In this document: positions 1 to 51,019 of the stretch, in pieces
Layout of the letters: each line of letters starts with the position of its first letter
How positions within the stretch are numbered: the first letter of the stretch is position 1
Source: Polytrichum commune
Taxonomy: Eukaryota; Streptophyta; Polytrichopsida; Polytrichales; Polytrichaceae
Length of the DNA: 64,000 bases
Assembly (NCBI GenBank): GCA_950295325.1
Contig: OX485804.1
Span: 62,588,533-62,652,532, forward strand
Direction: 5' to 3'
Translations under genes and position numbers: made by a program
Notes under the pieces: model-generated
What the model saw: only the letters and a program-made list of their open reading frames with translations
Databases searched by the model: none
Told to the model about the DNA's origin: nothing

Positions 1-3000
1 GGTTGAATTCAAAACCTTCTTGGTTTGCATATCGATAGCAGAAAATACTATGAGGACGCCATCATCAGACAAGATGGACTTGCACAAGGACATTGTTGCA
101 ACCATCCAGTTCTTGTCATATTTATTCCAAAGAGGAATTTCAGCAAGTCTATTGGAGAGGTTGAAGTCAAGACCGTCGGGAAATTGCAGAAAAACCAAGT
201 CAACGGCAAATGGAGTCGGACTTCCCATGACATGAAATTCGCGATTGTCTTTGAACTGAAATACCACAACATATCACAATATAAGACACAAAATAAAATC
301 CAAATGAAAATAAAAACATTACAGAAAATACCAAAACAATAATACTTACGTTTTCAAGAAATGTCCGCCATTGGATCCACTCAGGAGGGCCTACTTCAAC
401 CCCTTCAGACTTGTTCTTGACAGCAGTAGATCGAGCAAAAGAGAGTGTGAGAAAGTTCTTCAGTATGAATAACTATTTTCTCAAAACATTCGTTGGCACA
501 CGATGAATAGTGTCATAGGTGCTCGAGTAATGGAATTCCAATACATCGCACCCAGACTTTGAACTTTCGCCTCCAAGTGGATTCTTATCCAAATCATTGG
601 AAAGAACAAGCAATTCTTCATGTTGTGAAATTTCCGATTGTTCTTGTATTTTGGTTTCAGGAACATGTTTCCTCTTACGACGTTTTGTCTCTTTTGGTTC
701 TGGCTCTCTAAGTTTAAGCTGCACAATTTGTGCTTGCAAAATTGCAGTATCACGAGGATCCACATTTTTAGCATCATTTATCTGACGGATTGTCTTCTCA
801 CTTGACAGACATGCATCCTTAGGACAATCAAGATACCAACCACAATCCTCATAGTGTCGGAGCGACCAATCCAAACAAATCTCAGTAGTGAACATGCATG
901 AACCTCCTGCACCAGTGTCACGCCAATTTGGGAAAAAACGAGGTTCCCCTATAACGCATTTATCTGGAATCAAAACATATCGAAAATACCTACACACAAA
1001 AATATTGTAAGTCAAATATTCCATGACAATTTGACAAATGGAATCAAAAAAATCAAAAAAATAATAAGATTAGGTTGTACCTGTATAATACACGTTTCAT
1101 AGCAAGATCAATATTAGGTTACTCATCCCAACCGTTGTGTTTTTTAACTTTTCCGCTTTGGAATTCACGATAGAATATTGAATTGAAAGCCACAAACTTC
1201 CAGGTTTGGATATACTCGGAGAGAATAGGCACATCTGTAGGCAACTGGAGAAGAGATGAAAGAATACTTTGAAGCTCTTCGATAGCCTTTTTTTCCAACT
1301 GTGCCCAATATGTAGACTTTGATAACCAATCATCAAGTGCAGAATCAGAGAGGGGCGATTTCGGGAAATGCAATGCATCTTTGTCAAATCTATTGCCATT
1401 CCAAAGCTTGAGCCATCCAACTTTGACTTCTGCATCCACATTACTGACAGCAACACGATGAAGTTTCTCTTGTAGCATTTCAGGCACCGAAAATGAACCC
1501 CAATGGTGCTTAACTTCTTCAAGGAAAGCAGAGGTAAGGTTGATATCAGCAATCGCTAGTTGTTTCGTAAAACTAGAAGATAACATTGCACATTTTTCGT
1601 TGACAGCTGCGGATATTGCTTTTGAAACTCCGTCTGATGTCCGTTCAAGATGATGAATTTCATTGTACTGGTTGAGAGCAATATCGCTAGCCTCAGCAAG
1701 TTCTTGCTGAAAAATCAAACAAAAATCAATATTTATAAATTCATATAGATGTAATGTAAAATGAAGGTGAATAAACATAAGGCACATATTAGCAATGGTA
1801 GAAGAACTTACACTGTACATGTAATCCAAAAAAATTGGTCGTGCCAAAGAATACCAAGTTTCGACGGACTTCTCCTCACATCGTTTATAACTCTTTGGAT
1901 CCAGTTGCTTTCTGAAGGAAGTCAAAGGCATGGTGCCAATACTTTACATCCGATATAAAGTATGCACCAAATTGGTGGATACGTGAGAATTTTCGGTTGA
2001 CCTAAAAGAAACATTAAATTGATTAGATTCATGATGATATAATTTGGAAAACAAAATATAAACTAGAAATAAGTGTAAAAAAATAGGTAAGAACATTACT
2101 TGTTGATGTCATGCATAGCAGTCAACAAACTTGGAATGTCGTCAGGCTCGGGCGCCAAAATGATAGAATCCACAAAGACATGACGTTCATAATCTTTGGT
2201 ATATACGCGGTCAATATAATTTTTCCAAGCAAGAAATCTGTGATTTCCATCCCATATAAAAAACATCTTGTTCTTGTATGACGTCAATGACAAATCTATA
2301 TCCAATTGAGATTCAAACAGGGCATTGGCTTGAGCCCAATTTGGGCTCCAAGATGCGCGAATCTCATCATCCACGAATTGAAAGTTTCCCTTAGAATCGG
2401 TGGTCGATATATAAAACACACGGTCACCATCACGATAACCATTGAAAAAATCAACCTCCAATTTAGTAATGTCACCCTTCAAAGCAGGACGCACAATCGG
2501 CATAGGAACCATGCGACATAAGGGTACACGCAAGCGAGCATTAGGTCCAGCACGGATTGAAGAAATTGTGGAAGTGGAATTGACCTTTCGTTTGTTCGTA
2601 AGCTCCCACACTTTCTCTTGATAAGTTTTATTATCACCATCATTATCTTCATCCGAGTCAAAATCATCGAGAGATTCATTTATTTTTTTCTTTTTCTTAT
2701 TATAAAGATTTGACGATATGTCATGATGATGATGAACTTGTTGAGATGGACGATCTTGAGTTGAATGCATTGTGGAATCATCATCAGTAGAAATAAGAGT
2801 CATTCTTTCCAAATCCATTGATTGGTCCTAAAACAAATGAAATAAGTTTCATAAATATTTCAAAACAAGTAGCAACACATTAGCAATAACATTACAAAAA
2901 CAACAGCAATAGCAACAACAATAACAACAGAATACCACGAACACAGGGAAGAATGACAAAAATTATCCTAGACACAGTCATTTGCACCTTTAAATATTGT

Positions 3001-3084
3001 ACAATTAGGATGGCCGCTCACCCCAAAACTACAAGGCCAGACCCTGTGCGTCCAACTACAGGTCTAACAAAGTTGGACGCGAGG

Positions 3085-3778
3085 TTTGGGTCAAACGACC
3101 CAAACCATGCTCACAGTTTGGGTCGTTCGACCCAAACTAGGCAGACAGTTTGGGTCGATCTACCCAAACTAGGCTCACAGTTTGGATCGGCCGACCCAAA
3201 CTAGGTAGACAGTTTGGGTCGATCAACCCAAACCATGCTCACAATTTCGGTCGACCGACCCAAACCAGGCTCACAGTTTGGGTCGATCGACCCAAACTAG
3301 GCTCATAGTTTGGGTCGGCCGACCCAAACTAGGCACATAGTTTGGGTCAGCCGACCCAAACTAGGTAGACAGTTTGGGTCGATCGACCCAAACTAGACTC
3401 ACAGTTTGGGTCGATCGACCCAAACTAGACTCACAGTTTGGGTCGATCGACCCAAACTAGACTCACAGTTTGGGTCGACCGACCCAAACTAGCCTCACAG
3501 TTTGCGTCGGCCGACCCAAACTAGCCTCACAGTTTGGGTCGACCGACCCAAACTAGGCACACAGTTTGGGTCGGCCGACCCAAACTAGGTAGACAGTTTG
3601 GGTCGATCGACCCAAACTAGGCTCACAGTTTGGGTCGGCCGACCCAAACTAGGTAGACAGTTTGGGTCGATCGACCCAAACTAGGCTCACAGTTTGGGTC
3701 GGCCGACCCAAACTAGGTAGACAGTTTGGGTCGATCGACCCAAACTAGGCTCACAGTTTGGGTCGGCCGACCCAAACT
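3085..3778. repeat. tandem array of 22 palindromic 32-bp units
   Basis: Units start at 3085, 3117, 3149 and so on every 32 bp to 3757 with no indel. Each carries a 20-bp palindrome with core GGGTCG-NN-CGACCC followed by a 12-bp linker (CTAGGCTCACAG or variants). The centre is usually GATC or GGCC. In the last seven units GGCC+GTAGACAG alternates with GATC+GCTCACAG, making a 64-bp higher-order unit. The array lies in intron 1 of the minus-strand gene. The 5' units are more diverged than the 3' units. Confidence 0.95.
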
Positions 3779-3983
3779 GTCCGCAATTTACGCCTGATTA
3801 TGCGCAATTACCCAGTCACCACGAAAGTGCAAACAAACCTTGTACTGCACCTGTAGATGAGAGAGCTTGCAGCAATGAGCTCAGGTCCGACGGAGGAGAG
3901 AAAAGAGACTCAATGCTTTGGGGTTGTGGCAATTTATACTACTTGTCCCTGCAGCCATATTTAGCATGGCTCTTCGTGGCCCC

Positions 3984-4135
3984 GCATAGCCGCTAGAAAG
4001 TTGCTAGCGCACACCCTGTGCGTTAACGCACAGAGTCTACTTGCCCAACTTTGCCCAACTTTGCCTCTAGCTAGGCAAGTAGACCCTGTGCGTTAACGCA
4101 CAGGGTCTGCGCTGGCAACTTTCTAGCCACTATGC
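3984..4135. repeat. long inverted repeat containing two GTGCGTTAACGCAC palindromes
   Basis: Arms of about 62 bp (3984-4045 and 4074-4135) are near-perfect reverse complements around a ~28-bp loop containing a repeated TTGCCCAACT. Each arm itself contains a 22-bp palindrome with core GTGCGTTAACGCAC (4014-4035 and 4084-4105). Three degraded palindromes of the same kind follow at about 4149-4213. All lie in intron 1 of the minus-strand gene. Confidence 0.9.
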
Positions 4136-4681
4136 GTTACCGCATACACCTTGTGCGTTAGCACATAAGGCTTGTGCGTTAGCACATAGACCCTGTGCGT
4201 TAACACACAGGGCCGAGACGTGAATTTGGAAAAAAACGTGTCTGGAATTTGTAGATTTGCGAAAACTTGTAAAATCTGGAAAAAATGCTAATGGGATCCA
4301 AAAAAAAAACAAAAATATGCTATATTATCTAAATTTCCGTAGCTACAAATGCTTCTGATATTTTGTTTTGGTTTGAAATGATTTTCTTTTCTCATTCTTC
4401 TATCTGTTTCCTTGTTTTGGGCCACCTCGTAGATTTTGGGTTTCGGGACAGAAAAAAATTTATGCTATTTTGTGTCATTTTCTAGCTCCTATAACGTATT
4501 GCATGAGTACTTGAATAGTCATATTTGTCATTTCTTGCATTCTAACCTCGTTTTGAATAGTTATTTTGCTCCTATGTTCTGAACATCGATTTAAATTCAT
4601 ACAATAGATATTTGTTTTAATTTTAGGCTCTCCTAGTCGTTTTACCTCCCAACTTTGGGCTTCTTAAGTTGCGCTTACGAA

Positions 4682-5205
4682 CCCTGTGCGTTAACGCACA
4701 GGGTTTCTCCTCCCAACTTTGGCCTTCCTAAGTTGCGTTTATAAACCCTGTGCGTTAACGCACAGGGTTTCTCCTCCCAACTTTTGGCCTTATTAAGTTG
4801 CTCTTACAAACCCTATGCGTTAACGCACAGGGTTTCTCCTCCCAACTTCGGCCTTCCTAAGTTGCTCTTATAAACCATGTGCGTTAACGCACAGGGTTTC
4901 GACTTCCAACTTTTTGCCTCCTAAGTTGCTCTTATAAATCCTGTGCGTTAACGTACAGGGTTTCACCTCCCAACTTCTCGCCTCTTAAGTTGCTCTTATA
5001 AACCCTGTGCGTTAACGCACATGGCTTCGCCTCTCAACCTCTCTTCTCTTAAGTTGCTCTTATAAACCCTGTGCGTTCTCCTCCTGACTTCTAGCCTTCC
5101 TAAATTTCTGTTATATACCATGTGCATTGACGTATAGGGTTTCTCCTCTCCAATTTATAACCTCTATAAATTGCTACTACATGACATGTGAGTGAACGTA
5201 CAAGG
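4682..5205. repeat. tandem array of ~64-bp units with GTGCGTTAACGCAC palindrome
   Basis: About nine units begin near 4682, 4746, 4811, 4875, 4939, 5003, 5067, 5118 and 5182. Each has the 22-bp palindrome of the 4.0-4.1 kb repeat plus a linker of the type TTTCTCCTCCCAACTT...AAGTTGCTCTTATAAA. Units decay to the right: the 5067 unit has lost half of its palindrome and the last two are heavily mutated. The array ends about 60 bp from the exon 1 donor at 5266 of the minus-strand gene. The stretch 4214-4681 between the clusters is AT-rich and shows no gene. Confidence 0.92.
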
Positions 5206-5548
5206 TTCTCCGTCCTAACTTACAACTTATGCACTATCAAATTAAGTGAACGTTGAACTGACTTACCTTTTTGTTTGTCGTCTTCTTTGAACTCGTCTTC
5301 AATTCGGACTCTGATATACGATCGTCTACATCTTCTTTGCTCTTTGCACCTTCATCATCCTCCATCGCATCAAAATCCAATGTCTTCACAGTTTCTTCTA
5401 CCGTACTCAACAAGTTTATTTTACCTTCCTTTTTTGCATCATTCTTTCCCACACTGAGTCTGAACTTTTTTTTCTCGGAAGTGAAATACAAAGCTTTCCT
5501 ACGTCTTCTGTTCGGCCTCACGGGTGTTCTCTCTACATCGTCTACCAT

Positions 5549-6069
5549 CGTTGGTATCTATGATATGTTTTCTATCAGGTACTATCATTTATTCTTCCAA
5601 TGTATCTATCTTACAAAATCCGGCGTATATTACGATCACATATTGTAATTGGCGTTCAATGAACGAGATATTTCAACGCGTTTGTCATTATGTGTTTATT
5701 TTTGTTATATCGCCAAAATTTTCTGACACCTACTTTGTTCTATTCATAATGATCAATAATTTATTTTTCCAACCAATTTTAATTCTTTCTACATCTGCGT
5801 CAGTCCACACATATATATTTTAAATTTCTACCAATCCTTTTAGTATTTGACGCCGTTTTGTGTATATCTTGCTCGTAAATAGTCTCTGACTATTATTGTA
5901 TTATGTCCACTTCTGTATTATTAGATGCTATGTATCACACGCTTTCATCTCCATCCATTATTGTATCACACGTTTTCGTTTTCATTCATTTCCTCACACA
6001 ACTCTATACAAAAACAACATTCACCCCATATTTTTGTGATGTGTTGTTCATATGTTCTTTTAATTTTCT
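5549..6069. promoter_or_regulatory. spacer between two divergent transposon genes, possible bidirectional promoter
   Basis: This 521-bp AT-rich spacer separates the ATG of the minus-strand gene (5548) from the ATG of the transposase (6070). No coding sequence is convincing in it. A bidirectional promoter is inferred only from the divergent arrangement; no clear core element was identified. Confidence 0.35.
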
Positions 6070-9000
6070 ATGGCTACCATTAGAGCTCATGGATCTTTTG
6101 TTCCCTTCATCTTGCCACTCCAAGTTGATGGTCATGTGAGTCTTTCAGAGAATTTACTTAGTTTGAGATTCAACCTCCAGATAGGAACCATGTATTTAGA
6201 ACATGAGATGTACTCTGCAGATGGAGAGGTGTATGAAACGATTTTGGTTCCAAAAAATAGAACTGATGTTGGTTTTATGTGGATCTTAGGACCTGGTTCA
6301 TTTAGGGTGATAGGACTTTCTGAGTCTCAAATGCAAGCTTCAACTGTCATTTTGACAAACGAATCCGGTACATCCACAGTTCAAATTCCCTCTATCACAC
6401 ATCTTAAGGTGGAACCCCTTGATGATAGTGTATTTGTGCTATCAGATTCAGAAGATGACATTTGTGCATCTGTTGATCTTTCAAACACATCGCCATTTCC
6501 ATTTAGAAGTGTAGCCAAATACCTTTGCGGTCTTATGTACAAAAAGGTGGTTCCCCAAATCTCACCTTCTCAACGTCCTCCACTACACCCTTCACCTTCA
6601 TCTACAGGGTTGACTATGGTTGATGCCTTGAAGCTGACAAAGTCAAGAAAAAGATCAAAGTCCGATCTTGCATCCATTGATTTTGACAGTATAGATGTTC
6701 GTGAAGTCAAGTACTTACCATCTTCTTTTAATGGTGATATTTTATTTCTCTTGCCTCCTGTGGCACTCAAAGCTCCAAGTACGTATGGTCGCTCAATGGA
6801 CGGCATGGACAAGATGTGCGACGGTCACCCTTGGTGCACCACCAAACCACGAATATCCAAAATGACTTTGGACTGTCCTTCCGGCGCTCTACTTGTGCTG
6901 GTCATCTCCAATGTCATAATGACTACTGTGATTACATGAATCGTAATGGGGGCCTCCGGAACAACACTGAATGGGCCGGTTCAACTCCTATCCCATTTGT
7001 TGTGGGTGTTGTTCCCCCTACTAAGTCCACTGTCGAGTGTAAGGTATGTCGTTCCACACCTGTATGCATTGCTTTGTGTAATGCTCGAATCATATACATT
7101 CACTCCACATCCGTTGGAATGTCCAGGGCTTGCATTCATCTTGGTGTACATGATCATCCTGTGGCCAATGGCACATGCCGTGAATCATTGGACATGGCAT
7201 ACCAATGCGTTGCAAATGAAGTATTGAAAACACCCACAGCAAAAAATTCAGCCATAGTTATGGCTGCGAGCAAACAATTCTTGGCCGATTACCTTCTCAA
7301 ATCTCCCGCAAATGTCGAAGGCCATCACTTGGTTGGTTCATCCCTAGAGGTCGTCATGGACAAATTAAGCACTCTTGCCTCTCCAAATTGTCGTAACTTT
7401 GTATCTGGATCAAAGCGTTTTTTGCGTAGTGGAATGGGAACTATGGATAGTATTATGGCGCTCAAAGACCACTCTGCTTTCAAATTCGTCCATGGTAGTC
7501 GGTTCCCAGGGCAGTCAAAGGACAAAGTGTTTGTTTTTAAGATGTCTGTAGACCTTCCAGGTAGTGGTGTGGAGCTTGTGAAGAGGATGCAAGTCGGTGG
7601 GAATATGGAAAATTCATGGATTATGTTTGATCATGTCAAACGTTTGAAGGACTGGACGACCATGGCTTGCCATGTGTACGACAGTCGATACTGTAAAGTG
7701 TTGACTATTGCGTGTTGTGACATGCAATCTGAAGATGGTGCAGCGTAAATTCTCTTTTGGGAAAATTTGAATGCTGTCATGGCAGATAATGATGTACCAA
7801 ACGTAAACTTCAAAGGGTTTATGGCTGATAGTGCTCAAGCTAATTGGAATGCGGTGAGGGCGATTTACGGGGATGGTGATCCAAGTCTACCCATGGTTGC
7901 ACGTGAGCGTACATGTCTTTTCCATTGGTCCGCAAGCTTGGATAAGGTGACCTAAAAGTATATCAAACCATCCTTGCAATTTCAACACAAACAAATATGC
8001 AAGGATTACAAATACGCGAAAACAATGGACGACGCTGAGACCAAGTACCATGTGATTCGTTCTTGGTGGTTGTCATCTGGAGCTGCCTCCGAAGAAGGCA
8101 TCCTTGGCCTTTCAGAGTGGTTGGGATTTTGGCACTTTCGTTACAGACAATGGGATGGCCATATGCTACTTGTAAGTACATATCAAACTTCATTATTCAA
8201 TGTAATATATCCTATGTTTTTCTTCTTTTTTATCTTTCTGTGTTGTTCATAGGATATGACGTGGCAGCCATTTTGGGTTGAACGACCCAAACCTAGATAT
8301 ATAATCTATCTTATGTTTGTCTTATCCTTGTATTTGTGTGTTGTTCATAGGATATGACAATAGAAGAGCGTGCGGAAATGCCAACATGCAACCTTGCAGA
8401 GACTGCACACAACAAATGGCTCCAACAGTCCGGCAACAAGATGTCTTGTTTATATGAAGCTACAGTGGACGACATGATCCGTGCTTTCATGCAAATTGCA
8501 AATTACCGGACATGGTTGAAAGGGGGGTCTGATGGTAAAGGTCCTGATTCGGCATCCTTGAAACTCAAAGTGGCTGCCAGGTGTGGAGATCCAAAAATGT
8601 TGGCCGATGCCATGAAGTCTTATCCAGGGGCAGAAGACGTCAACACTAGAAATTGTGCATTGGAAGGGTCAGAGCTCTTTGGTTCCACCAAACGCAAATT
8701 CAACCTACCACCGGGTGCTGATTGTGACTCTCATCGACCCGACAAAGTGAACTATTCCATTCCTCGTCCGAACACCCGAGCAACTCGTCAACGCATAGAG
8801 GAATCGTTGAGTTCTACAATTCATGGTGTGGCTCATACTACATCCGTGTTAGAGACAGATTGTCTTGCTTCCAAGTGGCACATTGCAAGATTACCACCCA
8901 ACTCAGCCAAACGATGTTGGGCACTGCAGGCCATCACAGGGACTATGTGCAATGCCAAAGTCGGGACTGGGAAACATGGCACACCTGCTCCAACATACAA

Positions 9001-9718
9001 AGGGCTCAGGAAGGAATTTCGCTCTCCCAACAATGTGGAGTATGAATTTTGGTTTTGCCCTGACGACATCAAACGTTGTGTGAATGGCAGTAAGAAGAAA
9101 TATGTGTTGGACTGGCCTATAGTACCCAACACATGGCCGGTGAAGATAGGTACCAATCTATCGCGAGAGGAGGTTTTGGCACTTGAAGATGCTGGATTTC
9201 AACTACAGCAGAGGGAGGCATTGTCCCCTCGTCGTAGGCTTTCAACAATCGCAACTCTCTCCATCCCTCGCTCGCATTTTTCTATGCCACCAAACCCGGA
9301 CGCCCACCCTACATTCAGGTTTGGAAAGACAATGCGTCGTAATCCAACAGCACCGCTAGCGGATCACAAAAACAAATGGGAGAGCGCCGGGCTCATGGAG
9401 GGTTACTATGTGGTTGGGGTCACTGCCATTCCATATCCGGGCTTTGGAGTGATAATCAACATTGTCTCCAAGCAGGATATCACCTACCATGTCACAATTG
9501 GCCACATCCCGCATTGCACATGCCCGGATTTCACGAAAATGTCCTCTCATGCATTGGGAAAGAAAGGAAAATGGGTGTATTGTAAACATCTTTATTATGT
9601 GTTTAGATTTTTATGCAAGGTGGATTACGAGAGTGACAAGTTCATTCATGCACCTACATATACCTATAACGAGGTCATGCGACTACTTGAATTTGCTGGT
9701 ATTGTAGAGTGTGAGTAG
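6070..9718 (+). pseudogene. decayed MULE-like transposase with SWIM zinc finger
   Basis: The protein can be followed from the ATG at 6070 to TAG at 9718 only across breaks: a frame change near 6850-6865, in-frame TAA at 7746-7748, and in-frame TAA at 7953-7955. Visible parts: an N-terminal region; Cys/His clusters (CDGHPWC, CAGHLQCHNDYC, CIHLGVHDHP) like the WRKY-GCM1/FLYWCH fingers found with MULE transposases; a catalytic-core-like region (SWIMFDHVKRLKDW, ACCDMQSED, FKGFMADSAQANWNAV, RERTCLFHW); a probable intron 8173-8350; then a 454-codon ORF (8354-9718) ending in CTCPDF...CKHLYYVF, a SWIM finger. MULE assignment rests on this domain order and is inference. It is divergent to the DGNHR gene and probably was its partner in one element. 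Confidence 0.75.
8173..8350 (+). repeat. transposase intron with duplicated 3' end and one satellite-type palindrome
   Basis: The intron opens GTAAGTAC at 8173. The identical 20-mer TGTTGTTCATAGGATATGAC occurs at 8241-8260 and 8339-8358, and similarity extends some 35 bp upstream of each, so the intron 3' end plus exon edge was duplicated. Between the copies lies TTTGGGTTGAACGACCCAAA (8272-8291), the same hairpin type as the 32-bp array at 3.1-3.8 kb. Only the second acceptor leads into the long 3' ORF. Confidence 0.75.
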
Positions 9719-10226
9719 TATTGCAAATGGTCTATTAAGTACCATATATTTGAATGTCAAAATATGACATGTTTTTGTTTGGATTTTTATAATAAAAATC
9801 AGCAATGGGCTGGAAGTATTTCAAATGATTCAGTAACTTCATTTCTATTTAGACTACGACCCAACCGTGAGCGGTTTGATTGATTGACATGGATAAATAA
9901 TAACAAGTTTCTAAAAATAAAAAATAATTGAGAAGATTCTACGCACATCCGCGTAGTAACGTCTTCTTGGTATCCGCCTATAAATTATTCCTGCTTTATC
10001 ACTAGCTCAATTTGGGATAACACCAGTCAATGTAACCAACCGGATTCGAACCCGGGTTGATACAGACCTAATACCAGTCTCTTACACAACTCGCATCCAC
10101 AGGCGGATGTCTCAAAACCTAGTAGTTACCTACATATTGACTATTTCTAATATCTAATTTCCTTTCATTTGTAGATTCTGGGCCTTAATTCAACCCGTGA
10201 GCAGTTTGAGTGGCTCACAATTATGG
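9719..10226. other. transposase 3' flank with SINE-like B box
   Basis: The 3' flank of the transposase is followed by AT-rich sequence. On the minus strand at 10042-10052 there is GGTTCGAATCC, an exact Pol III B box, flanked by CCGGG. A full tRNA cloverleaf could not be drawn, so a tRNA-derived SINE fragment is more likely than a tRNA gene. A similar GGTTCGATCC is at 11035-11044 on the plus strand. Both calls are weak. Confidence 0.35.
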
Positions 10227-10413
10227 CACCTACATGTACGTATAATGAGGTTATGCACCTACTTGAGCTTGATGGTGTTGTGGAATGTGAGTAGTTGTGC
10301 AAGTGTTGGTTGTAACTACATGTATAAGGATGTCAATAAATGACATGTATTGGTTTGGATTATTATAATAAAAATCAGCAATGAATTGAAAGTATTTTAA
10401 ATGATCTATGGAA
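10227..10413 (+). repeat. diverged second copy of the transposase 3' end
   Basis: This stretch repeats 9652-9836 (last codons of the transposase, stop and ~120 bp of 3' flank). It includes the ACTACTTGA...GTGAGTAG end and the ATAATAAAAATCAGCAATG motif. The copy lacks the rest of the gene, so it is a truncated duplicate or the end of a second element. Confidence 0.8.
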
Positions 10414-10540
10414 ATAGGGCCCTTTCACTTGTGCTTCATTTAAAATATTGGCAATTTACAATTGAAAATATGCAATTAATTTGTCAAAATTTTGGTTGTG
10501 TACCCTAAACCCGTGTGTCTTTACTAAATTTGGAATCATT

Positions 10541-10611
10541 GCTCATATGTTACTGCTCATTGCTCATGTGTTACTGCTCACCGCTCACCGCTCACTGCTC
10601 ATCGCTCATAA
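10541..10611 (+). repeat. short GCTCA-type tandem repeat
   Basis: Repeated TGCTCAT/CGCTCAC words occur about nine times in 70 bp. The surrounding 10.41-11.72 kb shows no supported gene. Confidence 0.7.
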
Positions 10612-11719
10612 GATAGCTTCCCTCCCCTCACATGAGCTCGTAACACAACAAAATAATGACCACTTCCCAACATGCTTAGAGTACTTCCCATTGCAGATGA
10701 ACGAAGTTGAGTGGGTTAAATGTAGAGTAGAAATCATCCATCAATCTAGAAGTTGTTTCTTGGATGCAAAATGGAAGCAACAAACAACCATAAATCATTT
10801 AGGGAGCACCAACCACGCACATAATTCACTGGCCGTGCCCATTTTGGGCCCAACTGTTTTGTCTCGGAACCCTAAGTTGGAAATAGAATTGGCATTGTTA
10901 AGGGACCACGATTAGGAATGCTAAATGCATGGATGTTGGGCATTAGAATGTGGGACATGATGAGGTTGATGCGTTTAATATCACATTAGAGTTATCCGTA
11001 AAGTCCCTCGGAGAGAGGGAGGAAGGAAACCGTGGGTTCGATCCTTCTATGAGAAAACTTTCCATTGACCCTAAAAATTCTAGAGCGTATTGTGGTTTGG
11101 TTAGATCATCTAAAAAGTAAGAATTCTAGAACTTAATTTTAAGTCAAAAAATGGCATCTCGTGAAGTTAAGGGTTAAGAGCTCGTTGGCTCCTTGTGTAT
11201 CGGAGCATGTTTTGAAAGTTGGGTGAAACTCTTGAGAAGTCTTCTTTCCACTTCTCAAACTTTGAGAAATAAAAACTAGAATCTAAATTAGGGTATGTGC
11301 ATGGGACCGTCGTTCTAAATCCTATGCAATGCTAGCTTGGCCCACCCAGCCTAGCAGGACAAATTAGGAAACCTAATTTTAATAGCCTAACACCACTCCT
11401 TGTGTATGATAATTTAAAGCATTAAGAAAACATGGATGACTTTGTGTTAATTCTCGTAAACTTGAAGTTTGGGACTAAATCCATGGTTTCATCCGCCTCA
11501 CTTTACAAACAACTCTATCATATGAAAATGAAATCACCAAAAATTTGCCTCCAAGTTTCATTAAAAACAAATTTTCATACACGCTCTACTTTGTGAGTCT
11601 AGTAGAATGTTTAACATGGGATACGGGATGGAAAGCAAGAATGTTATGCAAATCAACCCCTTCTCCTAGTGAGTGTAGGAGTTGCGCCCTCAACATTGGC
11701 AACAATCTACCCTCTCTTA

Positions 11720-12109
11720 GGGTTGGTTCTCACATGGTCTCAAGTACCAAGTCCCAAGTCACTTGAGGTCAATTTATGCAATGTCAGCCGTTGAGAGCAT
11801 GGAAGTTGGGACTTACCACTTCACATGAGATCCCAAGTCCTAAGTCCCAAGCATGACATGGATGTATACATGGTGTCATTTTTGGGAGGTGAGGCTCATG
11901 AATTGTGTTGAGAGTTGGGTCGAGCAAAAAACTAGACCCAACTCTTAACAAAAGTCTTGTGAATAGTTTTGCATAAAATAATCAAGATCCGACTTTAAAG
12001 ATGATTAACCATATTTTAATGGTGTCTCGAGACTCAAAAGTTGGGACTTCGCCTCCATGTTGGGACTTGCTGACTTGAGTGGGACTTGGGACCCCATGTG
12101 AACTGGCCC
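11720..12109. mobile_element. Tourist-like MITE, 390 bp
   Basis: Ends read GGGTTGGTTCTCACATGG and, reversed, GGGCCAGTTCACATGGGG. A 3-bp TTA direct repeat flanks it (11717-11719 and 12110-12112). The interior is related along its length to 50631-51019. TTA target duplication and GGG ends fit PIF/Harbinger-derived Tourist MITEs. No coding capacity. Confidence 0.85.
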
Positions 12110-12112
12110 TTA

Positions 12113-22780: not shown

Positions 22781-25700
22781 TAATCCAAACCTACAATTAG
22801 ATGAACTTGACCAGGTGAATCGATTGAATTGCTAACACCAATGCATGGTGATAAGTCAATCAAGAGAGTTAAGTATTAGAAATGCTCCTCATTCAATGCG
22901 TGCCTCTTGTTTAAGACTTAGACTTTGTGGAGCATACAGCTTTCTGTATTTATGGTTCACAATTATCTTTCTACTTTTCCAAGAACTCTCAGCATGAACA
23001 CTGACAAACATGCCATGAAATGGATATGATAACACAAATTTCTGTGTGATGATGTCGATTGTGTAGGATATGGTGTGGCTCTAACTAAGGCTACTTTGAA
23101 CAAGGAGGTGCCTTTGGGTCTGCGACAAATATCCCCTGAAAACTGGGTTACTGGCCCAAAAATTGTACATTAGGATTTTTATGGCTGGCTTATTTTGGAA
23201 TCTGTTGTATACTTGTTTGTATTTTCAATATTAAAGTTCATGATAGTGCTTGCTGTAGTGAACTATGTGGATGTTGATGATCTATAGAGATTGAAGATTC
23301 TGTTTATTATTTTCCTTGACTACTTGTCACCTAGCGGCAGTGTTACTGAAGCAGTATGTGAAGCAACACTGGCAGAAAGATGACAAGAATTTTATTTCAC
23401 CGGAAGTATCACTTGAAGAAAAGGTTTTTGTTTCTTGTACATTTCTGTGACTTGAGTGCAATGCTGTTTGAATTACTACATCTATGTTGTTCCATACTCC
23501 TTCCAGCAAACAATTAGAATGTCCCAGTAGTTACTCATAGTTGCCTGAGGAGAACACTACATTCCATGTAGGCATCCCTTTGTTTGAAGTCTACTTGCTC
23601 AACTGCTTGTTAATAGATTTTGGAGCAAGCAATCCTGAATCTTTTTTAATCATGAATATTACACTTCGTGCATGACTACCTGAAGGAACTGTTGCTTAAT
23701 GTTGCATACATGAAAGGCAAATTATTTTCTAGCTTTATGCCAAGCTTTTGCTTGGTGTGATCCTTGCTGTAACTTCCTTAGATAAATGACCCAACTACTG
23801 TTACTTCAATAGTGTTTTTGCCACCTTTCCAATCACAGTGGTCATCTACTCCTGTTACAGGCAGCCATCAAAGAACTTCTTCCTCCAGCATTGGAGGACC
23901 CACATGGCAAGATCCGGACTGCTGTTGGAATGGCAATTGCATCAATTGCCAACTGGGACTGGCCTGAAGAATGGCCTGGTTTGATGGACTATCTGATTCG
24001 ACTCATTAATGACCGCACAGATGTCAACAAAGGTATTGATGTACCCATATACATTCATTTTTGAGGCTAGTCTAAGGTGTGTGCTATATTTGTGTATAGA
24101 AGTTACTAACACACATATTGTATTTTTGGACAGTGCATGGAGCATTGCGATGCTTAGCCTTATTTGCTGGTGACCTTGATGATGTCCAATTGCCACCTTT
24201 GGTGCCAGTTCTTTTCCCTGCTCTCTACGCAATTGTTACTTCCCCAGAAGTAAGTTCTTCCCTTGTCGGCTCGTTTGAGGCATTTGGTGGGTGCTGCATG
24301 AGAAGTAATATTCTTTGTTTGACATAAAAGTTTGATGTTAAGCACCTTCAGTCAACGCTGTTAATCCCTTCATGGTAACTACCCCATGTAGCTCTATGTA
24401 ATTTTTGGGATTTTTGGATCTATTGAGGTTCATTTTAAGGTTCAAAAAACTCAATGCTCTCAAAGTCAATCTAATAGGTGCATTGCAGGCAGCTCATAGA
24501 ATGTGGTGCATTTAGTTTTGTAAGCTCTGTATCCTGCTGCAGTTATACTTCGATTGGCTGAGGGTGTATCTATTGCCATGAGTTTACAAGGCTTTTCTAT
24601 CCTCTGACTGTTACTTTTGTGGGTACCTCAACTGATGATGCATCTTTGAACCCATAAGATGCTTTTGATAAAGCTTCGGGTAGTTGGCGAGTAGTACTTT
24701 GAGTTGATGTCTTTTCTTGTTCTGGTCACAGATGGTAGATCAGATGTTATATCTTAATAGATAAGGGTCAAATGGTTTGTTGCACTTAATGCTGTAGCAA
24801 AGTTTATTGACCTTAGGATATCTTTGTGTCCTATTATCCAGGCTTATGAAAGCTCTTTACGGCGGCGGGCCCTAATTATTTTGCACAGTTGTATTTCAAC
24901 TCTGGGTGTCATGAGTGGTGCTTATCAACAGCAAACGAAGGAATTGATGACACCCATGCTGAAAGCTTGGATGGAGCAGTTTGCTCTGATATTGACACCT
25001 GTTGTACCGTCTGAAGATGCTGATGACTGGGGCCTGCGAATGGAGGTATGTGTGTCTGTCCAGCTGTTGAAAATTTATAAGGAGCTAGTTTGTTTTGTGT
25101 AGTGACTATTGATGCTACTCTGGACACCGTCAGTCTATTTTGTGAATATATGAAATTGTCCTGGACCAGCAATTGTGAAGCTCTGTAGAAGTTTCTACTT
25201 GCAGGAAAATGCTCATACGAATCCGATCTGAGATTCTTGTCTTGTTATTCTGAGCCTTTTATAGCTAAGGATCACCCAGAATCTGTAGGATGTTATACTA
25301 ATCACTCTCCACGTTTCACAAAGGCTGGTCAGGGACTTTGCAAGCCTTGGTAGTGCTCCAGTTGATAGGTGGCGAGCAAAGATAATAAACTTAAGAGTGG
25401 AAATTACTTAAGAGTTTGCTGGTGTGGTTTAATTTAATGAAATTGGCATGCAGTGTGCAAATTTGTACTAAGTGCATACTGAAATGAACAAAGGGTATCT
25501 GCGTCCAGTCAAATGTCCATATTCTGGTCTTTAAGAAGTCCAGCTAGTCAAATACAGTAGTTTGAAGCTGACCTTCAAGTGAAATTACTTACCTGCAGAA
25601 CAAGTCATGTGTGCTTTGGATATGTTGATTACAGGCATTGAAGGTTTTAATGCGAATTGTAGAAAATTTCCCTAAACTGGCTGCAGCAGAATTTCCAGGT

Positions 25701-28700
25701 AAAATCCCCAAAGCACTTGAGTTCTTTTTATTGATTGTTCAGTGCAAAGATCTGCATTTTATATTGGTGCATATTTTTTCTGGTGAATGGCTGCTGGTCA
25801 AATGATTTACCACAATTTTACTATTGCTGCATATTTGTTCTCTATCGTTTCATTGCATGTGCTCTTTGCTTCCCTTCTCTTGCTTATTATTTGAGCATGT
25901 AACTCTTGGATAGCTGGATCACAGTGCTTTGATCCCTGGTTACTTATATCTGTAAGTGTTGTCTAAAACGTGGTACTTACAAGGATATCTGTTTTTGTTA
26001 TTGAACAATAAAGTTTCTACCTTGCAAGAATTTGGAGTGTCTTGGAGCACAATTCTCTCGTCACAACCCCAATACTGTGATGACAAATGTGCTAACATTG
26101 AGAACACCTTTTTTTGCAATTCTTTCACAACCAAAGCAAATAGGTCAGGTTCTTGTGCTACACTTCCTCTTATATCAGATTTCCTGTGCAGCGGTTCTGG
26201 GCCCACTTTGGCAGACATTTGTCTCGGGTCTTAAAGTTTATGAACGAGCATCTGTGCAAGGGATGGAGGAGTCCTTTGCAGGAATGGCGGACTCCGATGG
26301 CACTGACCAAAGCCTGGAATCATTTGCTATACAGGTTCAATTAATAATTTTACACATCCATTAACTTATGTAGTTGAAAGCACTTGTTTCTCTTTGAAAG
26401 TGTTGGAATCTGGATGTGTTGTAAACATGTTCTGTGCAGGAGAATAATGTTTTGTGGGCATTTTGGTCTGCATTCCTCTCATTTTCCAATACATTAAGTG
26501 GTGAAGTCCCTTGTACTAAATTTAGTGTTAAATTTGTCTATTTGCAGCTATTTGAATTCCTGTTGACAGCTGTTTCCAGCCCTCGCTTCAGCAAGGTTTG
26601 TTCTTGTGGCCTAAATTGACCTTACTACAGTATCATAGGAAGGTGCACAATGTTCACTATTGCATTTTCTGCTAGATTGTTAGGCTATGTTATGCAATTG
26701 AAACATTTTGACCAATCCCTTAGCTAGTTGGATTGTCCCAGAGATGTCAATTTTCTTGGCACTTTAAAGTTTGCTTGGATGAGGCCGTGTCAGCAAATAT
26801 ACCATCCATATGCAACAATGTCGGCTGATTTAGCTATCTTCCAAAGTATAGTTGTGCGTATCCTGTTCATTTCCTGGCGTGATGGTTACTTCTGAGCTCT
26901 CTGCTCTAACAACGTATGCCTTCTTTGCCTTCAAAACTTGAAAGCAGATTGTGCAGAAGAGTGTTGGTGAGTTGGTGTATTACACAGTTGGCTACATGCA
27001 AATGACTGAAGAACAGGTACTTGTCTTGGAGGTTCTGCAACTTGTCATTAGTGCCATCTGTTTGTAGTAGGCACCACAGAGAATTCCATGATGATTGGAA
27101 CACACTTTGATAGTATGAGGTCTATGGGCTTGATCTGAGGTTGTTTCTCTAGCAACATTTTGATTGTCCGTGAATTAACACAGTGCATTCAACAACACAG
27201 GACATGCTAGGTTCTCTGAAATGTAGAGTGATTTGTGTTGCTACATGTTTTCCTGTTTTGATAGGTACAAACTTGGTCATCTGATTCAAATCAGTATGTT
27301 GCTGATGAGGATGATGTTACATACAGTTGTCGTGTTTCAGGTTAGATTTGATGAAGCCCACAAAAATATAGGAGCCCTCTATTTCTTGAAATATTCTTGT
27401 CTAGGGACTACAGTCAAATTTGCTTCACATTTTATTGACTTTCCTTTTAAGATTACTAGGACCAGTCATGTCTCTTAGTTCTACAGTGCCATCCTTGGAT
27501 TTTTCATCTCCAACGACATCACAGTTTTTGTTAGTGAAGTTTCTCAGTGAGGTGAATTTCTATTTGTTTACTTCCATGGTTTGTTTAGTGTGTGACTGTT
27601 TGAACAAAGTGAAACTTATGGGTTACTTTAGGGCCTATATATGACACAAACTGGAGTTTCTATTCTGGGCAGGAATACTGCTGTTGGAAGAGCTAGTCGC
27701 CGTGTTTGATATGGATGGACTTCGATTGATAGTTGAAGCTGTGCAACAGCGACTAGCAGAAGCTAGCCAGGGCAAAGCTCAAGGTCGCACTGACTGGTGG
27801 AAGGCAAAGACAAAACAATGCACAGCCTCTTTGCACGTGTTTGCTGCATTTTTTTTCTTCCTGTTTTCTATTCCTGACCAACATCCCTGTATTCTATTTA
27901 ATATATGCAGGAGACAGATTGCTACTGTTCTCTTATTTCCTTGCCTCACCTTTATTCTGGTTTGGCAGCTCCGAGAGGCATCTATTCTTGCAATTGGGAC
28001 TGTGGCTAATTACCTTCATGAAGCAAAGGTACTACAATGTTGCTCCTGGTGGCTAAGACATTGCAGTGTTTCCCTCCTGAATTTTTTGCTCTCTGTTTAT
28101 ATCTTACGCTACTTGCGGTTTGTTGCTGTACTGGTGCGTTCAGGAAGACTTATTGACATTCAATTTTGAGCCCTTCTTGGATTCCATTTTGAACGAGGAT
28201 CTTGGGTCAGGTGTGTTTGTGGGCTTATGTTTGTTGCTCAATGAATTGTCATTTCCCTTCTCTCTCCTGTATATTTCAATTCATGCATTTTTACTGTGAC
28301 TCAATTCCTTCTTATTTCTTCCAATTGGTTCTGTGCTGCTGTTCCAGAAATATTGAAGAGCATCATTTTATCAGTACCTAAAGTTACAAGCAGATAGTGG
28401 ATCTTGAGGTTCTTGAGATAGTATGATATCTTAGTTAGATATTGTGTCCTTCAAAGATTGAAGGCAACAAGATACCTGTAACCTAGAGGCATAGAGGCAC
28501 ACTGTGTCTGAGGGGTTACATACACTTTAATTCTTTTGTCATTTCTTTCAAGTGTGTAATTCAGAATCATCTATATCTCAGGTGTGGAGGAGTGCCCTTT
28601 TCTGCATGGTCGAGCGTTGTGGGCTGCTGCCAAATTTTCCACTGCAGTGAGAAAGGCCTAACTTATTTCATATGTGTTTGTACTTTGTCTTTATTAACAT

Positions 28701-31700
28701 GTCTGGAGTAGTTAAACTCTTGTTTAAGAATCTGTTATTCCCTGACTGATGATTCCATATATGTCTGCAGATTGATAAAGGAAGGTCAGAGAGGTTTTTC
28801 TATGCAGCTATTAACGGCTTGGCAGATGGCTAGTAAGTTCTGCTCACATGCAATCAGTGTATAGAGATATATGTTTGTACCTTAGTTTCTGACCTAGCCA
28901 GCTTGGAAATATTCTAACTTTGCAGCAGATCCCTGTACCCTGTAGCCACATGCATGGATAAGCTCGTTCACTTCCTCTCACGAGCTGTTGTACTTTTAAG
29001 CACATGATATTGCTATCATTGTTCAAGGTCAACTGGCTAATATGACATCATATAGTGAACTTCATGAATCCTGTGGTGATACTGAGGATAAACAAATGAA
29101 TTGTGTGTGGGTGGTCATTGTTTACAGCTCGGCAGCAATCAAAGTAGGGGCTTGTCGAGCACTCGCTCAGTTATTTGAACAAGTGGAGGGTTCAGTTTTG
29201 CAACCTCACCTTCCTTCTGTTTATGTCGCCCTCAGCAAACTACTCCAGGAGGTAGGTCAGAGAAATTTTGCATTAAGATTTGTAGATATTCTATTGCTGG
29301 GCCATTGGTTTGAGGTCGTTGAATATGTTATAGATTTAACTTCTTCAGATAATGTGATCATGTTTGTCAGAATGAACAATATGTTCACAACAGATGTAGA
29401 TCACTGTTGTTTCAGTGCACAATTAGCTGTTACACTTTATCTCAGTGGCCTTGTACCATTTTGCCTCTGATATTCTTCTTATGAGAAGCCTATTATTGTG
29501 TTCTGATCTATTTACTTTTATGTAACATTTCTCTCTTTTGCTACCTGCCTTTTTTTGGCAGAGAAAATGTGACGTATTTTAATGTACAGATATCTATACC
29601 TTATCGTTGAGTGAGTATTGGACTCACTGAGGATAGTATCTCTTTCTTGCAGGCCTCTGATGAAACTCTCCATCTTGTGTTGGAAACCGTCCAAGCTGCA
29701 GTGAAGGCTGGTGAGTTATTTTGGGATTTTTCTAAACATATGCATATTCATTTTTAAAGCATATGGAATGAAGTTTATAATCAACTCAAATCTTTAGTTA
29801 TACAACTCAGGTTTCAAAGTCCCCTGGTGTGCACAGATGATCAAGCGGCAGCTGCAGCAGAGGCCATGATATCCCCTCTTATTTTGAATGTCTGGGCCCT
29901 CAACGTATCGGATCCTTTCATCAGTTTTGATGCATTAGACACTTTGGAGGTCAGTCTTTAGAGTACATATGGCCTTTAAATTTTGTCGTATGTTTATCTG
30001 GTTTCACGAGTTCAAAAGTGTGTCTGGAGCTCATGGACTCAAACTGTAATGATTGATTCCAATTTGATGTAATGTCCAAAGTAATCATGCCACTTACCTC
30101 AAGTGTATTGTGAAGCTTTACAAGCACCTCCAATTAGAAGCCTGCAATTCTATGTGAAGCGTAGATGTCAGTAATTTTTTTGGTCTGGTTTCACTTGCCA
30201 TTTGTACTCTAAGACTTGAAAGTAAGAACTTTAGTTTTCTAGTGAAGTGTGGAAGGTGTGACTTGATGTAACTTGATTGATGACTAAATTACTTTGGTTG
30301 CAATTGCAGACCTTGAAGAAGGTTCCAGGGTGCCTCCAGCCACTGGCAATGCGTGCTTTGCCAGTCTTGGCATCCATTTTGGCCAATGTAAGTCTTTACA
30401 GCCCCAAGTACCGGTAATTTACTAAAGGTTCTGGTCGAGGTATTCTGAAGCAAAATACTGCAGCACTTGTTTAAGCACTAGTGGCTCTTGAATTTTGCAG
30501 CATTATTTCATGGATTAGTATTTAGCAATGTTTGTATCAGATGTCTGGTTTATACTAGAGATTATACTCAAATATTGCTGTGTAATCTCAAGTTGCACTT
30601 ACTCCCTGGTATTTATTTCTGGTGTCTGAGAAATGGTTTGGTTTCTGGTAGCCTCAACATCAACCTCCTGGCCTTGTGATTGGAGCTCTTGACCTTCTCG
30701 CCATGCTACTCAAGGCAAGTCTTCCTCATATTATGATATTACCACATTATTGTACGAAAGTGCTTCCTATCCATAAAATATGTTCACCTGCCATTGTTGT
30801 CTGTTTTCCGAACAGTGTTTAACTGCTTCTAAATAAGCTTATGTGGTGATGTATTCAAAATACTTCCATCTCTTGTAACCACCATCCTTTTGATACGGAG
30901 CAAATGCTGAATTCAACACACATGTAAGAATCGCAAAGCCAGAGAGATTAATTTTGAGACATTCATAATGACCTTGCAGAAAGCGCCTGTGGATGTTGTG
31001 CGAGCAGCATATGATACAACATTTAATTCTATTGTGACAATAATTCTTCGGAGTGATGACACAAGTGAGCTCCAAGTGAGTATCAAACAACATTGAGAAA
31101 TTTGAAAGGTTTTAATGCCATGTGTATTTTCTGTTCTGCATTCCAATTTGGTTGAACTATATCTAACTGGTTGTCACTTGTTTACCTTGGAACATAATGA
31201 TCTACACATTTTGATTTTATGAATTGTCTTTGTGTCACTTTGTAGTTGTGTTCTCTGATTTGGTCATTTTGTTCTTCCAGAATGGTACAGAGTGTCTGGC
31301 AGGTTTTGTAAGAGAAGGAGGAGAAACCTTGCTGGGGTGGTCTGGTGATGCAGATAGGACAACACGCATGCTCCTCGATGCAACTGCAAGGTATGTGGAA
31401 CATAGACATATTATTGTGGATTATTTATGGGTATGGTTATTTAATATGTATTCATAGCTTAATCGTTTACTTTGTCTAATCAAGATTGACACCTACACTT
31501 CTGTAGTTGATTTGCTTTTGACATTTATTATAGTCTGTATAAATGCATTGATTATGCATTGGGGCTATTCCAGGATGTTGATGAACTTCCAGGTTTTAAC
31601 TCAGCCAAGTTATTACTCTCATGTTGTGTCTTTCAATGCAATGTGTAGGTTGCTGAACCCAGAACAAGACAGCTCGGCTGCTTTATTTGTGGGGAACTTT

Positions 31701-34700: not shown

Positions 34701-35471
34701 TTATTCATAATAAGTGTCATCCGAAAAGTTACCATAGTGATAGAAAATACCATGATAGTAAATATCATATTTATTGTACTTAATTTCTGTAAAAAGTGTA
34801 TCTGATGTGAGAGATGTTTCAACCTACCCTTCCTCATTCTTGCTTATGAATACTGTGAGGTGTACCCAGAAAATCTAACTATGCCAAGCTTGTGGTCAAG
34901 AGCCTGTCAATAATTAGTGTTGATTGGTGGATGAAGCTTGAAGATGAAGATTACCAAGAAGATCCATGTGCAGCCACTGATCCTCTAAATAAGGTACAAA
35001 AGCAATGGGGTTTAATGTATAGCTGAAAATTTTCACATTCCTTCTGCAGTCTTCTTTCATATCTGAAGAATGTCAGAAATTGAAGTCTGTTGCGGTTTGG
35101 TGGAATTGAGCAAGAACTTACATATTTGTGTGAATTGCAGATTAATTTGACAGTCTATGTGACGGGTTTCATTAAGCAATTGATGGAAACAGACAGAGTT
35201 TCGTTTGAGCATATGTGTCAGGTACGATTCTACATGCACCTGGACAATTTGGTATCAACTATTAGCAACATGGTGACTTTTGGTGCCCTTCAAGCTATAA
35301 TTATAACCCCATCAGTGCAAAGCTAAATCCACAATATTCTTGTAAATTCTTTAGTACATATGCGCAAAAAGTTTCCATTTCTTTATATCATGTTGACACT
35401 GTTTCTGTTGGTTTTTGCAGACACTCACAGATGCTGAGAAAAGAGCAGTTCAAGCAGTGCTGGCCAGATGA
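22329..35471 (+). CDS. IPO9: importin-9 type karyopherin-beta, 32 exons
   Basis: Exons: 22329-22455, 23067-23128, 23331-23423, 23861-24032, 24134-24249, 24842-25045, 25635-25698, 26192-26334, 26548-26595, 26948-27016, 27265-27340, 27673-27803, 27969-28028, 28144-28210, 28582-28646, 28771-28832, 29128-29251, 29653-29710, 29837-29949, 30310-30387, 30652-30714, 30980-31075, 31281-31390, 31649-31838, 32428-32542, 32770-32882, 33300-33380, 33753-33821, 34138-34299, 34937-34993, 35141-35221, 35421-35471. Total 3,120 bp, 1,039 aa, all phases compatible. Landmarks match plant importin 9 (Arabidopsis At1g26170): QAAEEALKQASLQ, LAAVLLKQYVKQHW (importin-beta N domain that binds Ran), DWPEEWPGL, KVGACRAL, GHENALSYVMSEWT. 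HEAT repeats follow. Exon 29 encodes the acidic loop (DDEWEEIDDDEDEDDDD). Importin-9 proteins carry basic cargo such as histones into the nucleus. The ATG at 22329 starts the conserved protein. Exon 30 has a weak acceptor and is the least certain. Confidence 0.95.
23129..23330 (+). other. AT-AC (U12-type) intron 2 of importin gene
   Basis: Exon 2 ends CTG CGA CAA (LRQ) and exon 3 starts CTA GCG GCA (LAA). The 202-nt intron begins ATATCCCC and ends AC. TTCCTTGAC at 23312-23320 matches the U12 branch site, with its A 11 nt from the end. No GT donor downstream in exon 2 keeps the LAAVLLKQ frame. Confidence 0.9.
27804..27968 (+). other. GC-AG intron 12 of importin gene
   Basis: The exon ends TGG TGG AAG and the intron starts GCAAAG. 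The next exon resumes CTC CGA GAG after CAG. The nearby GTGGAA would break the frame, so a GC donor is the only fit. Confidence 0.85.
30715..30979 (+). other. GC-AG intron 21 of importin gene
   Basis: The exon ends CTA CTC AAG and the intron begins GCAAGT, the classical strong GC donor context. It ends TTGCAG before AAA GCG CCT. Protein alignment (AMLLK/KAPVDVV) needs this junction. Confidence 0.88.
34415..34779. mobile_element. MITE in importin intron 29
   Basis: The left end CACTAAATATGATATTTAGTG is mirrored imperfectly at the right (AGTAAATATCATATTTATTG). The interior matches 60520-60981, and 41255-42725 in inverse orientation. It takes up more than half of intron 29 and ends about 160 bp from the exon 30 acceptor. 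Confidence 0.85.
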
Positions 35472-50630: not shown

Positions 50631-51019
50631 GGGCCAGTTCACACGGGGTCCAAGTCCTAAGTCCCAAGTCACTTGAGGTCAATCCGTGCAATCTCAACCG
50701 TTGAGAGGCTTGGGACTTACCACTTCCCACGAGGTCCCAAGTCCTAAGTCCCAAGTACGACATGGATGCCTACATGGCAACACTTTTTGGAGGTCAGGCT
50801 CAGGACTTGTATTGAGAGTTGGGTCGCACAAAAAGCTAGATCCAACTTTCAACACAAGTCCCCCAAATATTTGTGCATAAAATAATTGAGATCCAACTTT
50901 AATTTTAATTAATACATTTTAATAGTTTCTTGAGGCTTAAAAGTTGGGACTTTGTCTTCATGTTGAGACTTGCTAACATGAGTAAGACTTGGTACTTGGG
51001 ACCCCATGTGAAGTGGCCC
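50631..51019. mobile_element. Tourist-like MITE, 389 bp, upstream of CSN9
   Basis: Same family and almost the same length as 11720-12109. Ends are GGGCCAGTTCACACGGGG and, reversed, GGGCCACTTCACATGGGG. TTA flanks the left, ATA the right. It lies within the 5' UTR or promoter of CSN9. Confidence 0.85.

Follow-up and report, generated by a model that had tools for sequence, protein, structure and literature searches.

We analyzed a 64,000-nucleotide stretch of the Polytrichum commune genome (contig OX485804.1; C2:62588533-62652532 of the 408-Mb genome), hereafter called the window. Its left end cuts through a Mutator-like transposon that carries, besides a transposase gene, an accessory gene on the opposite strand. 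This accessory gene belongs to a repeated family and is under coding constraint, and its product has a C-terminal part homologous to methyltransferases. Copies of the element also contain arrays of dyad-symmetric sites that are conserved within, and specific to, subfamilies of the gene. In the reading that we prefer, at a probability of roughly 0.55, the accessory gene of this transposon encodes a self-recognition factor of about 1170 amino acids, part ParB-like and part methyltransferase-like, for the dyads of its own element. A dimer of the accessory protein would bind the dyad-symmetric sites arrayed within the element, possibly loading there before a ParB-like spreading. Copies of its own family would thereby be kept expressible or mobile, a putative anti-silencing role resembling that of the VANC proteins discussed below.

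The element and its accessory gene

The transposon extends from window position -1215 to 10625 (11,841 bp, of which the window holds 1..10625; negative positions lie to its left) and was delimited by its target-site duplication (TSD) and inverted ends. The 9-bp TSD, CCTCACATG, was located by plus-strand match, with the left copy at -1224 and the right copy at 10626..10634. This sequence occurred only twice on the plus strand of the joined 70 kb, both times as a TSD copy. The inverted termini are imperfect, GCTATCTTATGAGCG being present in both, and the right terminal inverted repeat (10536..10625) contains short GAGCGGTGAGCAAT-like repeats. A TSD of 9 bp is typical of the Mutator superfamily and, together with the inverted ends, therefore fits a Mutator-like element. 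These features bear out the association with a transposon that a preliminary description of this DNA had proposed. The transposase gene (approximately 6064..9718, plus strand) is transcribed divergently from the accessory gene, which lies on the minus strand, and both are enclosed by the TSD-flanked ends in an opposite-strand layout. Its assignment as Mutator-like, with a SWIM-like CTCPDF...CKH at the C terminus, was made by eye; the pieces from the window and one read-through piece had no match to a transposase in Pfam. Read from the window alone, this transposase copy contains two stops, at about 7746 and 7953.

The accessory gene comprises eight minus-strand exons. It starts at 5548, and exons 6 to 8 reach left beyond the window, so that the gene ends about 1 kb outside it. 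Exon 1 (5267..5548; MVDDVERTP...) ends in the donor AAAAAG/GTAAGT and has a homologous exon in L032, an intact copy of the gene elsewhere in the genome. Exon 2 (2100..2827), recognized by its matches in the same genome, encodes a low-complexity N-terminal part followed by the DGNHR (ParB-like) domain. Exons 3 (1812..2001), 4 (1081..1706), and 5 (350..989) each contain a premature stop in the window copy, at 1946-1944, 1121-1119, and 475-473, respectively; exon 3 is open in L032 when read from an upstream acceptor. Exon 6 (255 to -94, with 1..255 inside the window) holds the methyltransferase motif IV region and the sequence downstream of it, and is followed by exon 7 (-187 to -644) and exon 8 (-753 to -1005). 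The preliminary description had placed the gene at 1 to 2827. The gene is real, but that span truncates it, as exon 1 lies at 5548-5267 and both repeat arrays described below fall between exons 1 and 2. The residues cited there are all present in this one minus-strand gene, in exons 2 and 6. DGNHR, a GxxR-type P-motif, is encoded at 2237..2251 in exon 2, with FFIW before it and VDSIIL after it. VDLVFLQFPDG, at the position of DPPY in beta-class amino-methyltransferases, is encoded at 172..204 in exon 6, as is SILSDDGVLIVF at 78-43.

We searched the whole genome for relatives of the gene. Exon 2 gave at least 154 matches at an expectation value (E) of ≤0.001, with 150 of 1242 candidates scored and some matches being pieces of one copy, and exon 6 gave at least 150. 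Most of the exon-2 matches listed shared 74-96% identity (subfamily A), while a second group stood at about 43% (subfamily B), and a few of the matches listed were intermediate. We then read 13 A copies, including that of the window, and seven B copies, over up to 10 kb each. The 19 copies from outside the window had been chosen among the exon-2 matches listed for a stop-free exon 2, before any dyad was counted. Three of the 13 A copies (L032, L033, and L034) are open across exons 2 to 8, and the L032 protein has 1173 amino acids. None of the three in-frame stops of the window copy occurs in these copies, and its coding length exceeds theirs by 5 nucleotides, which shows as a shift of the reading frame in exon 6, immediately outside the left edge of the window. 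The window copy is thus a pseudogene, and its earlier description as decayed is right for this copy but not for the family.

Variation among the 13 A copies was concentrated in one codon position of the exons, and exons 2 and 4 showed this best. For L032, the ratio of nonsynonymous to synonymous substitution rates (dN/dS) was 0.12 against L041, 0.20 against L042, and 0.28 against L043, which are the three copies most divergent from it. Against the closer copies L031, L036, and L038 it was 0.35-0.48. Stops in several of the six copies compared inflate the ratio. The segments of the accessory gene are coding and under constraint.

Domains of the accessory protein

The preliminary description had noted a methyltransferase-like segment, and comparisons with the intact copies supported it. 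In PHROGs, the whole spliced L032 protein matched phrog_67 "DNA methyltransferase" (E = 4.3e-7, residues 871-1067) and phrog_3008 (E = 3.6e-4). Both families were also matched by L002, a bacterial ParB-methylase from a Sphingobium plasmid. The joined methylase exons matched Pfam N6_N4_Mtase (PF01555) with an E value of 1.1e-4 and 22.7 bits, under the curated cut-off of 26.7. This family was also the sole Pfam match at E ≤ 1 for the 1173-residue protein, again under the curated cut-off (E = 0.025). Using hhalign, we compared a profile built from 13 A copies and 3 B copies with 14 bacterial and phage ParB-methylases and obtained an E value of 8e-5 and a score of 37.3, the maximum among 60 column shuffles being 23.9. 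Exon 6 alone stayed at chance level in the profile comparison, with 75 of 150 shuffles scoring as high. The motifs follow the order of the beta class, IV and then X-I-II: VDLVFLQFPDG precedes GRPWRGPYQK...VVDLTCSTGAS...LLAFEGD, and exon 7 of L032, GRPWRGPYQKSPRFFQDLIELFTPSNGRVVDLTCSTGASILATRACGRHLLAFEGDNDMFEHILKPLL, lies at the position of motifs X, I, and II in beta-class amino-methyltransferases. These matches and this motif order identify the C-terminal part as an amino-methyltransferase domain of the beta class.

The catalytic [DSN]PP[YFW] is absent from this domain. Motif IV reads QFPD in 11 of the 13 A copies, QFPN in one, and QCPD in one; in subfamily B it reads EYPD at all four of four loci. 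Motif I is DLTCSTG in A and DLTAGTG or similar in B, as against DPFxGSG. The loss of DPPY is therefore old and retained across the family, and this points to an altered or non-catalytic domain, not to decay. The half that carries motifs X, I, and II is retained while motif IV is changed, so that an ordinary DNA methylase is less likely here than a module that is altered or lacks catalysis. The preliminary description had listed inactivity, a mutation of this copy, and a misreading as possible reasons for the missing DPPY. Its absence is confirmed and an altered or inactive domain is favored, but a local mutation is not the reason, since QFPD and EYPD typify the family.

The DGNHR domain likely adopts a ParB/sulfiredoxin (Srx) fold, judging from its motif and its conservation. 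In 21 sequences with identities down to 43%, N and H are invariant and D, G, and R are at least 90% conserved. The GxxR P-motif (Box II), as it is defined for ParB-type domains in the passages covered of PMC12704722, is present in FFIWDGNHRFLAW and FFVCDGNHRRQAW, in a context that by eye is strand-helix. A profile search of PDB sequences with the DGNHR domain returned nothing relevant. With the window alone as query, nothing of use was found in Pfam, NCBIfam, PHROGs, PDB sequences, IMG/VR, or GTDB genomes, and phage records gave weak matches in one search and none in another.

Dyad arrays and their possible partners

Intron 1 of the window copy contains two kinds of dyad. Array 1 (3084..3777) consists of 22 dyads GTTTGGGTCG-NN-CGACCCAAAC (≤2 mismatches), here called dyad 1, repeated with a period of 32 bp. 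Dyad 2, CCCTGTGCGTTAACGCACAGGG, is found nine times at 4014..5024 with ≤3 mismatches; the sites are mostly spaced at 64 bp, and six of them form the 64-bp array. A remnant of the array-1 dyad lies in an intron of the transposase gene (8271..8292, 2 mismatches); as a control, 100 shuffles of the window gave no dyad-1 match within 3 mismatches. In the homologous transposase-gene intron of another A copy, we found six such dyads, two of them exact. Relative to the consensus of array 1, 8 of 440 half-site positions, 20 of 44 centre positions, and 31 of 210 spacer positions differ. In the 64-bp array of dyad 2, 5 of 132 arm positions differ compared with 32 of 252 neighbouring bases. Some dyads have GATC or GTTAAC centres, GATC not being constant in array 1.

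All 13 A copies contain A dyads: dyad 1 is present in 11 and the dyad-2 core in 12. The 11 stretches with dyad 1 hold between 1 and 15 exact sites each, and 9 of the 12 dyad-1 sites of L032 lie outside the element. The divergent copies L042 and L043 are without dyad 1 and carry dyad 2 or variants of it. Subfamily B has dyads of its own. The B1 dyad, GG[GT]TTCGG-NN-CCGAA[AC]CC, occurs at 13, 15, 14, and 14 sites in L044, L045, L046, and L048, and the B2 dyad, GTGTCTCGG-NN-CCGAGACAC, at 12, 9, and 12 sites in L047, L049, and L050. In 100 block shuffles, no 9+2+9 dyad of any kind occurred more than once, compared with the 12 sites in L050. These B dyads flank exons 2 and 3 on both sides, presumably in introns, the B gene model being incomplete. 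Crossover of dyads between A, B1, and B2 was zero in the 20 stretches, and the three different dyads share a layout with a 2-nucleotide centre. Beside their main dyad, the four B1 copies also have a second one, TTGAAGCC-NN-GGCTTCAA, with 1-6 sites per copy.

We also counted variation at sites anchored by their flanks. Here 31 of 846 arm positions varied compared with 515 of 2820 flank positions in B2, and 52 of 1062 compared with 724 of 3540 in B1; array units are not independent, so p-values would overstate the difference, and we use these figures as ratios. Variability in the arms is about 4-8 times lower than in the neighbouring bases. Exact copies in the whole genome numbered 9,231 for dyad 1, 444 for dyad 2, and 997 for the B2 dyad, with none for the reversed controls. 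Individual dyad sites were listed from one end of contig C1. Of 50 dyad-2 sites listed, 45 have a listed exon-2 match no more than 5.2 kb away, and dyad 2 looks private to subfamily A.

Several observations weigh against a ParB-like protein dedicated to these dyads. The exon of the ParB part, taken alone, was matched by 127 of 150 shuffles in the profile comparison; a second comparison scored 11.9, the mean of 100 shuffles being 11.4; and deletion of a presumed 44-residue insert brought no gain, 17 of 60 shuffles scoring as high. The sole match naming ParB was phrog_1033 (E = 0.091), in one of the two B copies scanned. The preliminary description had suggested a ParB/Srx-like region and proposed that intact homologues be collected and their structure predicted. 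A GxxR motif is present and holds down to 43% identity, and intact copies were collected, but the profile comparisons did not rise above shuffles, and AlphaFold2 models with a predicted local distance difference test (pLDDT) of 42.5 from a single sequence and 44.1 from a 21-row alignment gave no usable fold. As to the dyads, the centres of B1 and B2 vary as little as the arms do (0/118 and 5/94), unlike that of dyad 1. Paired changes that keep the symmetry numbered 0, 1, and 3 compared with 10, 20, and 28 one-sided changes (B2, B1, and A2). Selection for symmetry itself is therefore not established. Furthermore, for 81 of the 100 dyad-1 places listed, all in the first 2.2 Mb of C1, the distance to the nearest listed exon-2 match exceeds 6 kb, and only 12 of 50 B2-dyad sites listed adjoin such a match. 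A different element, L059 (G000:C1:616000-625999, 10 kb), has 35 exact dyad-1 sites in five arrays that differ in period and flank. Judging from these distributions, dyad 1 and the B2 dyad may also serve another element or further relatives.

The dyads might instead be bound by the transposase or by a host protein, with the accessory protein doing something else. We regard this as unlikely, although dyads are present in the transposase-gene intron as well and dyad 1 is common to L059. The element ends, where the transposase must act, are made of the different GAGCGGTGAGCAAT repeat, and no dyad occurs in the printed 110-bp end stretches. The dyads also switch with the accessory-gene subfamily, though the transposase may switch too. 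An explanation in which the dyads are passive is in our judgment very unlikely: they would be palindromic minisatellites, amplified by slippage or hairpins and homogenized by concerted evolution. Nearly all of the dyads seen are arrayed, their number varies from copy to copy (including the sites of L032 outside its element), and symmetric paired changes are rare, as such a process would have it. It accounts less well for arms that vary less than their neighbours even at flank-anchored sites, for one and the same 22-mer in the five dissimilar L059 arrays and in introns of both genes, and for a 2-nucleotide centre common to three different dyads.

Two further alternatives concern the protein. 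It could be a catalytically active methylase that modifies N6-adenine or N4-cytosine and so marks its own element. A motif order like that of the beta class, in which X, I, and II can be recognized, would suit this, as would the GATC or GTTAAC centres, and the Ectocarpus authors cited below suggested binding and modification of its own transposon for their protein, in the passages covered. We consider it quite improbable, given that motif IV is QFPD or EYPD and not DPPY, motif I is DLTCSTG or DLTAGTG-like and not DPFxGSG, and GATC is inconstant in array 1. Also doubtful, to about the same extent as a transposase or host site, is a chance likeness to ParB/Srx of the DGNHR motif in an unrelated DNA-binding or other domain. 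The domain reached neither profile significance nor a usable fold model, whereas DGNHR is kept down to 43% identity and lies N-terminal to a beta-class methyltransferase, as in the bacterial and phage fusions, and a transposon gene already published with this layout has a ParB-like domain in the passages covered of its source. Within the self-recognition reading, a more detailed version can be put forward tentatively, with the odds against it: a nucleoside triphosphate (NTP)-dependent, ParB-like clamp with a repurposed methyltransferase would load on the dyad arrays, and clamp and dyads would have drifted together to at least three exclusive specificities within one genome.

Two observations concern L059. 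About 200 bp beyond the end of the intact A copy in L032 begins a 78-bp dyad-1 array of the L059 type (L032 8221-9042), and L032 may therefore have inserted next to or into such an element. By eye, open reading frames (ORFs) of L059 at 5369-6850 and 7039-8571 resemble a ParB-like part (WLIDGQHSVEASKK, DGQHS) and a methylase C-terminal end (GDCIFNVFGGSK). We do not claim L059 as a ParB-plus-methylase element: the ParB part scored 15.9 against a shuffle maximum of 18.2, the second ORF scored 22.9 (E = 0.026, without shuffles), and neither ORF had a match in Pfam or PHROGs.

Related systems and neighbouring features

The preliminary description had conjectured a eukaryotic transposon protein of ParB-plus-methylase design; such a protein exists and is already in print. 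In the passages covered of PMC12477816, the accessory gene of Sola1-1_Ec32 from Ectocarpus encodes 1104 amino acids with a ParB-like and an N4/N6 methyltransferase domain, on the strand opposite to the transposase. Its authors suggest that the protein binds and modifies its own transposon, and they liken it to transposon proteins of green and red algae (citing Iyer 2011 and Petroll 2025). The Polytrichum gene likewise lies opposite the transposase and encodes a protein of similar make-up (1173 compared with 1104 amino acids), with an amino-methyltransferase and a ParB-like part. Unlike what those passages report of Sola1-1_Ec32, the Polytrichum element has a 9-bp TSD, a Mutator-like transposase, a plant genome as host, and a changed motif IV. 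It also has subfamily-specific dyad arrays, of which the same passages describe none. The idea of self-recognition is thus that of the Ectocarpus authors; what is new here is the candidate binding sites, dyads located between and beside the exons. Among the papers listed by literature searches on ParB-type genes with transposons, algae or plants, or palindromic repeats, no title or abstract opening describes such dyads.

By analogy, the Ectocarpus Sola1 accessory gene is the nearest gene model, and the nearest functional model is VANC, from VANDAL elements, which are Mutator-like. VANC21 recognizes tandemly repeated motifs located in introns, and these motifs drift from one related family to another (PMC5735166, passages covered). 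The likeness, here one of layout only, lies in a transposon accessory gene with motifs that are tandemly repeated in introns and differ between families. In contrast to the 9-bp motifs of VANC in those passages, the dyads measure 18-22 bp, and the Polytrichum protein, described here from its sequence, has a methyltransferase domain. In the Pfam scan at E ≤ 1, the 1173-residue protein contained neither DUF1985 nor DUF287, the VANC domains named there.

The same succession of a ParB-like part and a beta-class methylase, motif IV preceding motif I, is seen in L002 and 13 relatives, which are ParB-N6_N4 methylase fusions of bacteria and phages. They have DPPY, DPPW, or SPPY, and mostly DPFxGSG, which the Polytrichum protein is without. 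The methylase follows close behind their ParB part, whereas about 480 amino acids separate exons 2 and 6 here. In ParB-parS partition (abstract of PMC12704722), the protein sits on short palindromes in clusters. The likeness that we propose to this system is that of clustered short palindromes, the half-sites being different.

For the algal ParB-methyltransferase genes, binding to and modification of the own element have been suggested, with no binding sites proposed in the passages covered. The Polytrichum family provides candidate sites and several copies that are intact. Specificity can be tested within it, since its three subfamilies carry different dyads that do not cross over in the copies read. 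If the protein does bind its dyads, this would be a ParB-type system in a eukaryotic transposon. It would also represent a second, structurally different solution to the recognition of self copies by Mutator-like elements, and a source of natural protein-site pairs for DNA targeting in plants.

The remaining features lie elsewhere in and near the window. A B-type methyltransferase exon is located at G000:C2:62542239-62542481, about 46 kb left of the window. From the ORF list we recognized by eye three ordinary host-like genes: an importin-like gene with long introns (24761-31841, plus strand), a transfer RNA (tRNA) dimethylallyltransferase-like exon (36800-37150, plus strand), and a malectin/leucine-rich repeat (LRR)-type receptor-like gene (53994-56890, minus strand). 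Two direct copies of a repeat of about 370 bp, 82-91% alike by segment, lie 38.9 kb apart at 11741-12112 and 50651-51022. Another repeat of a few hundred bp with a ACACTAAATATGATATTTAGTGT-like dyad occurs in direct and inverted copies at 34412-34753, 41249-41507, and 60517-60955, and looks like a small non-autonomous element.

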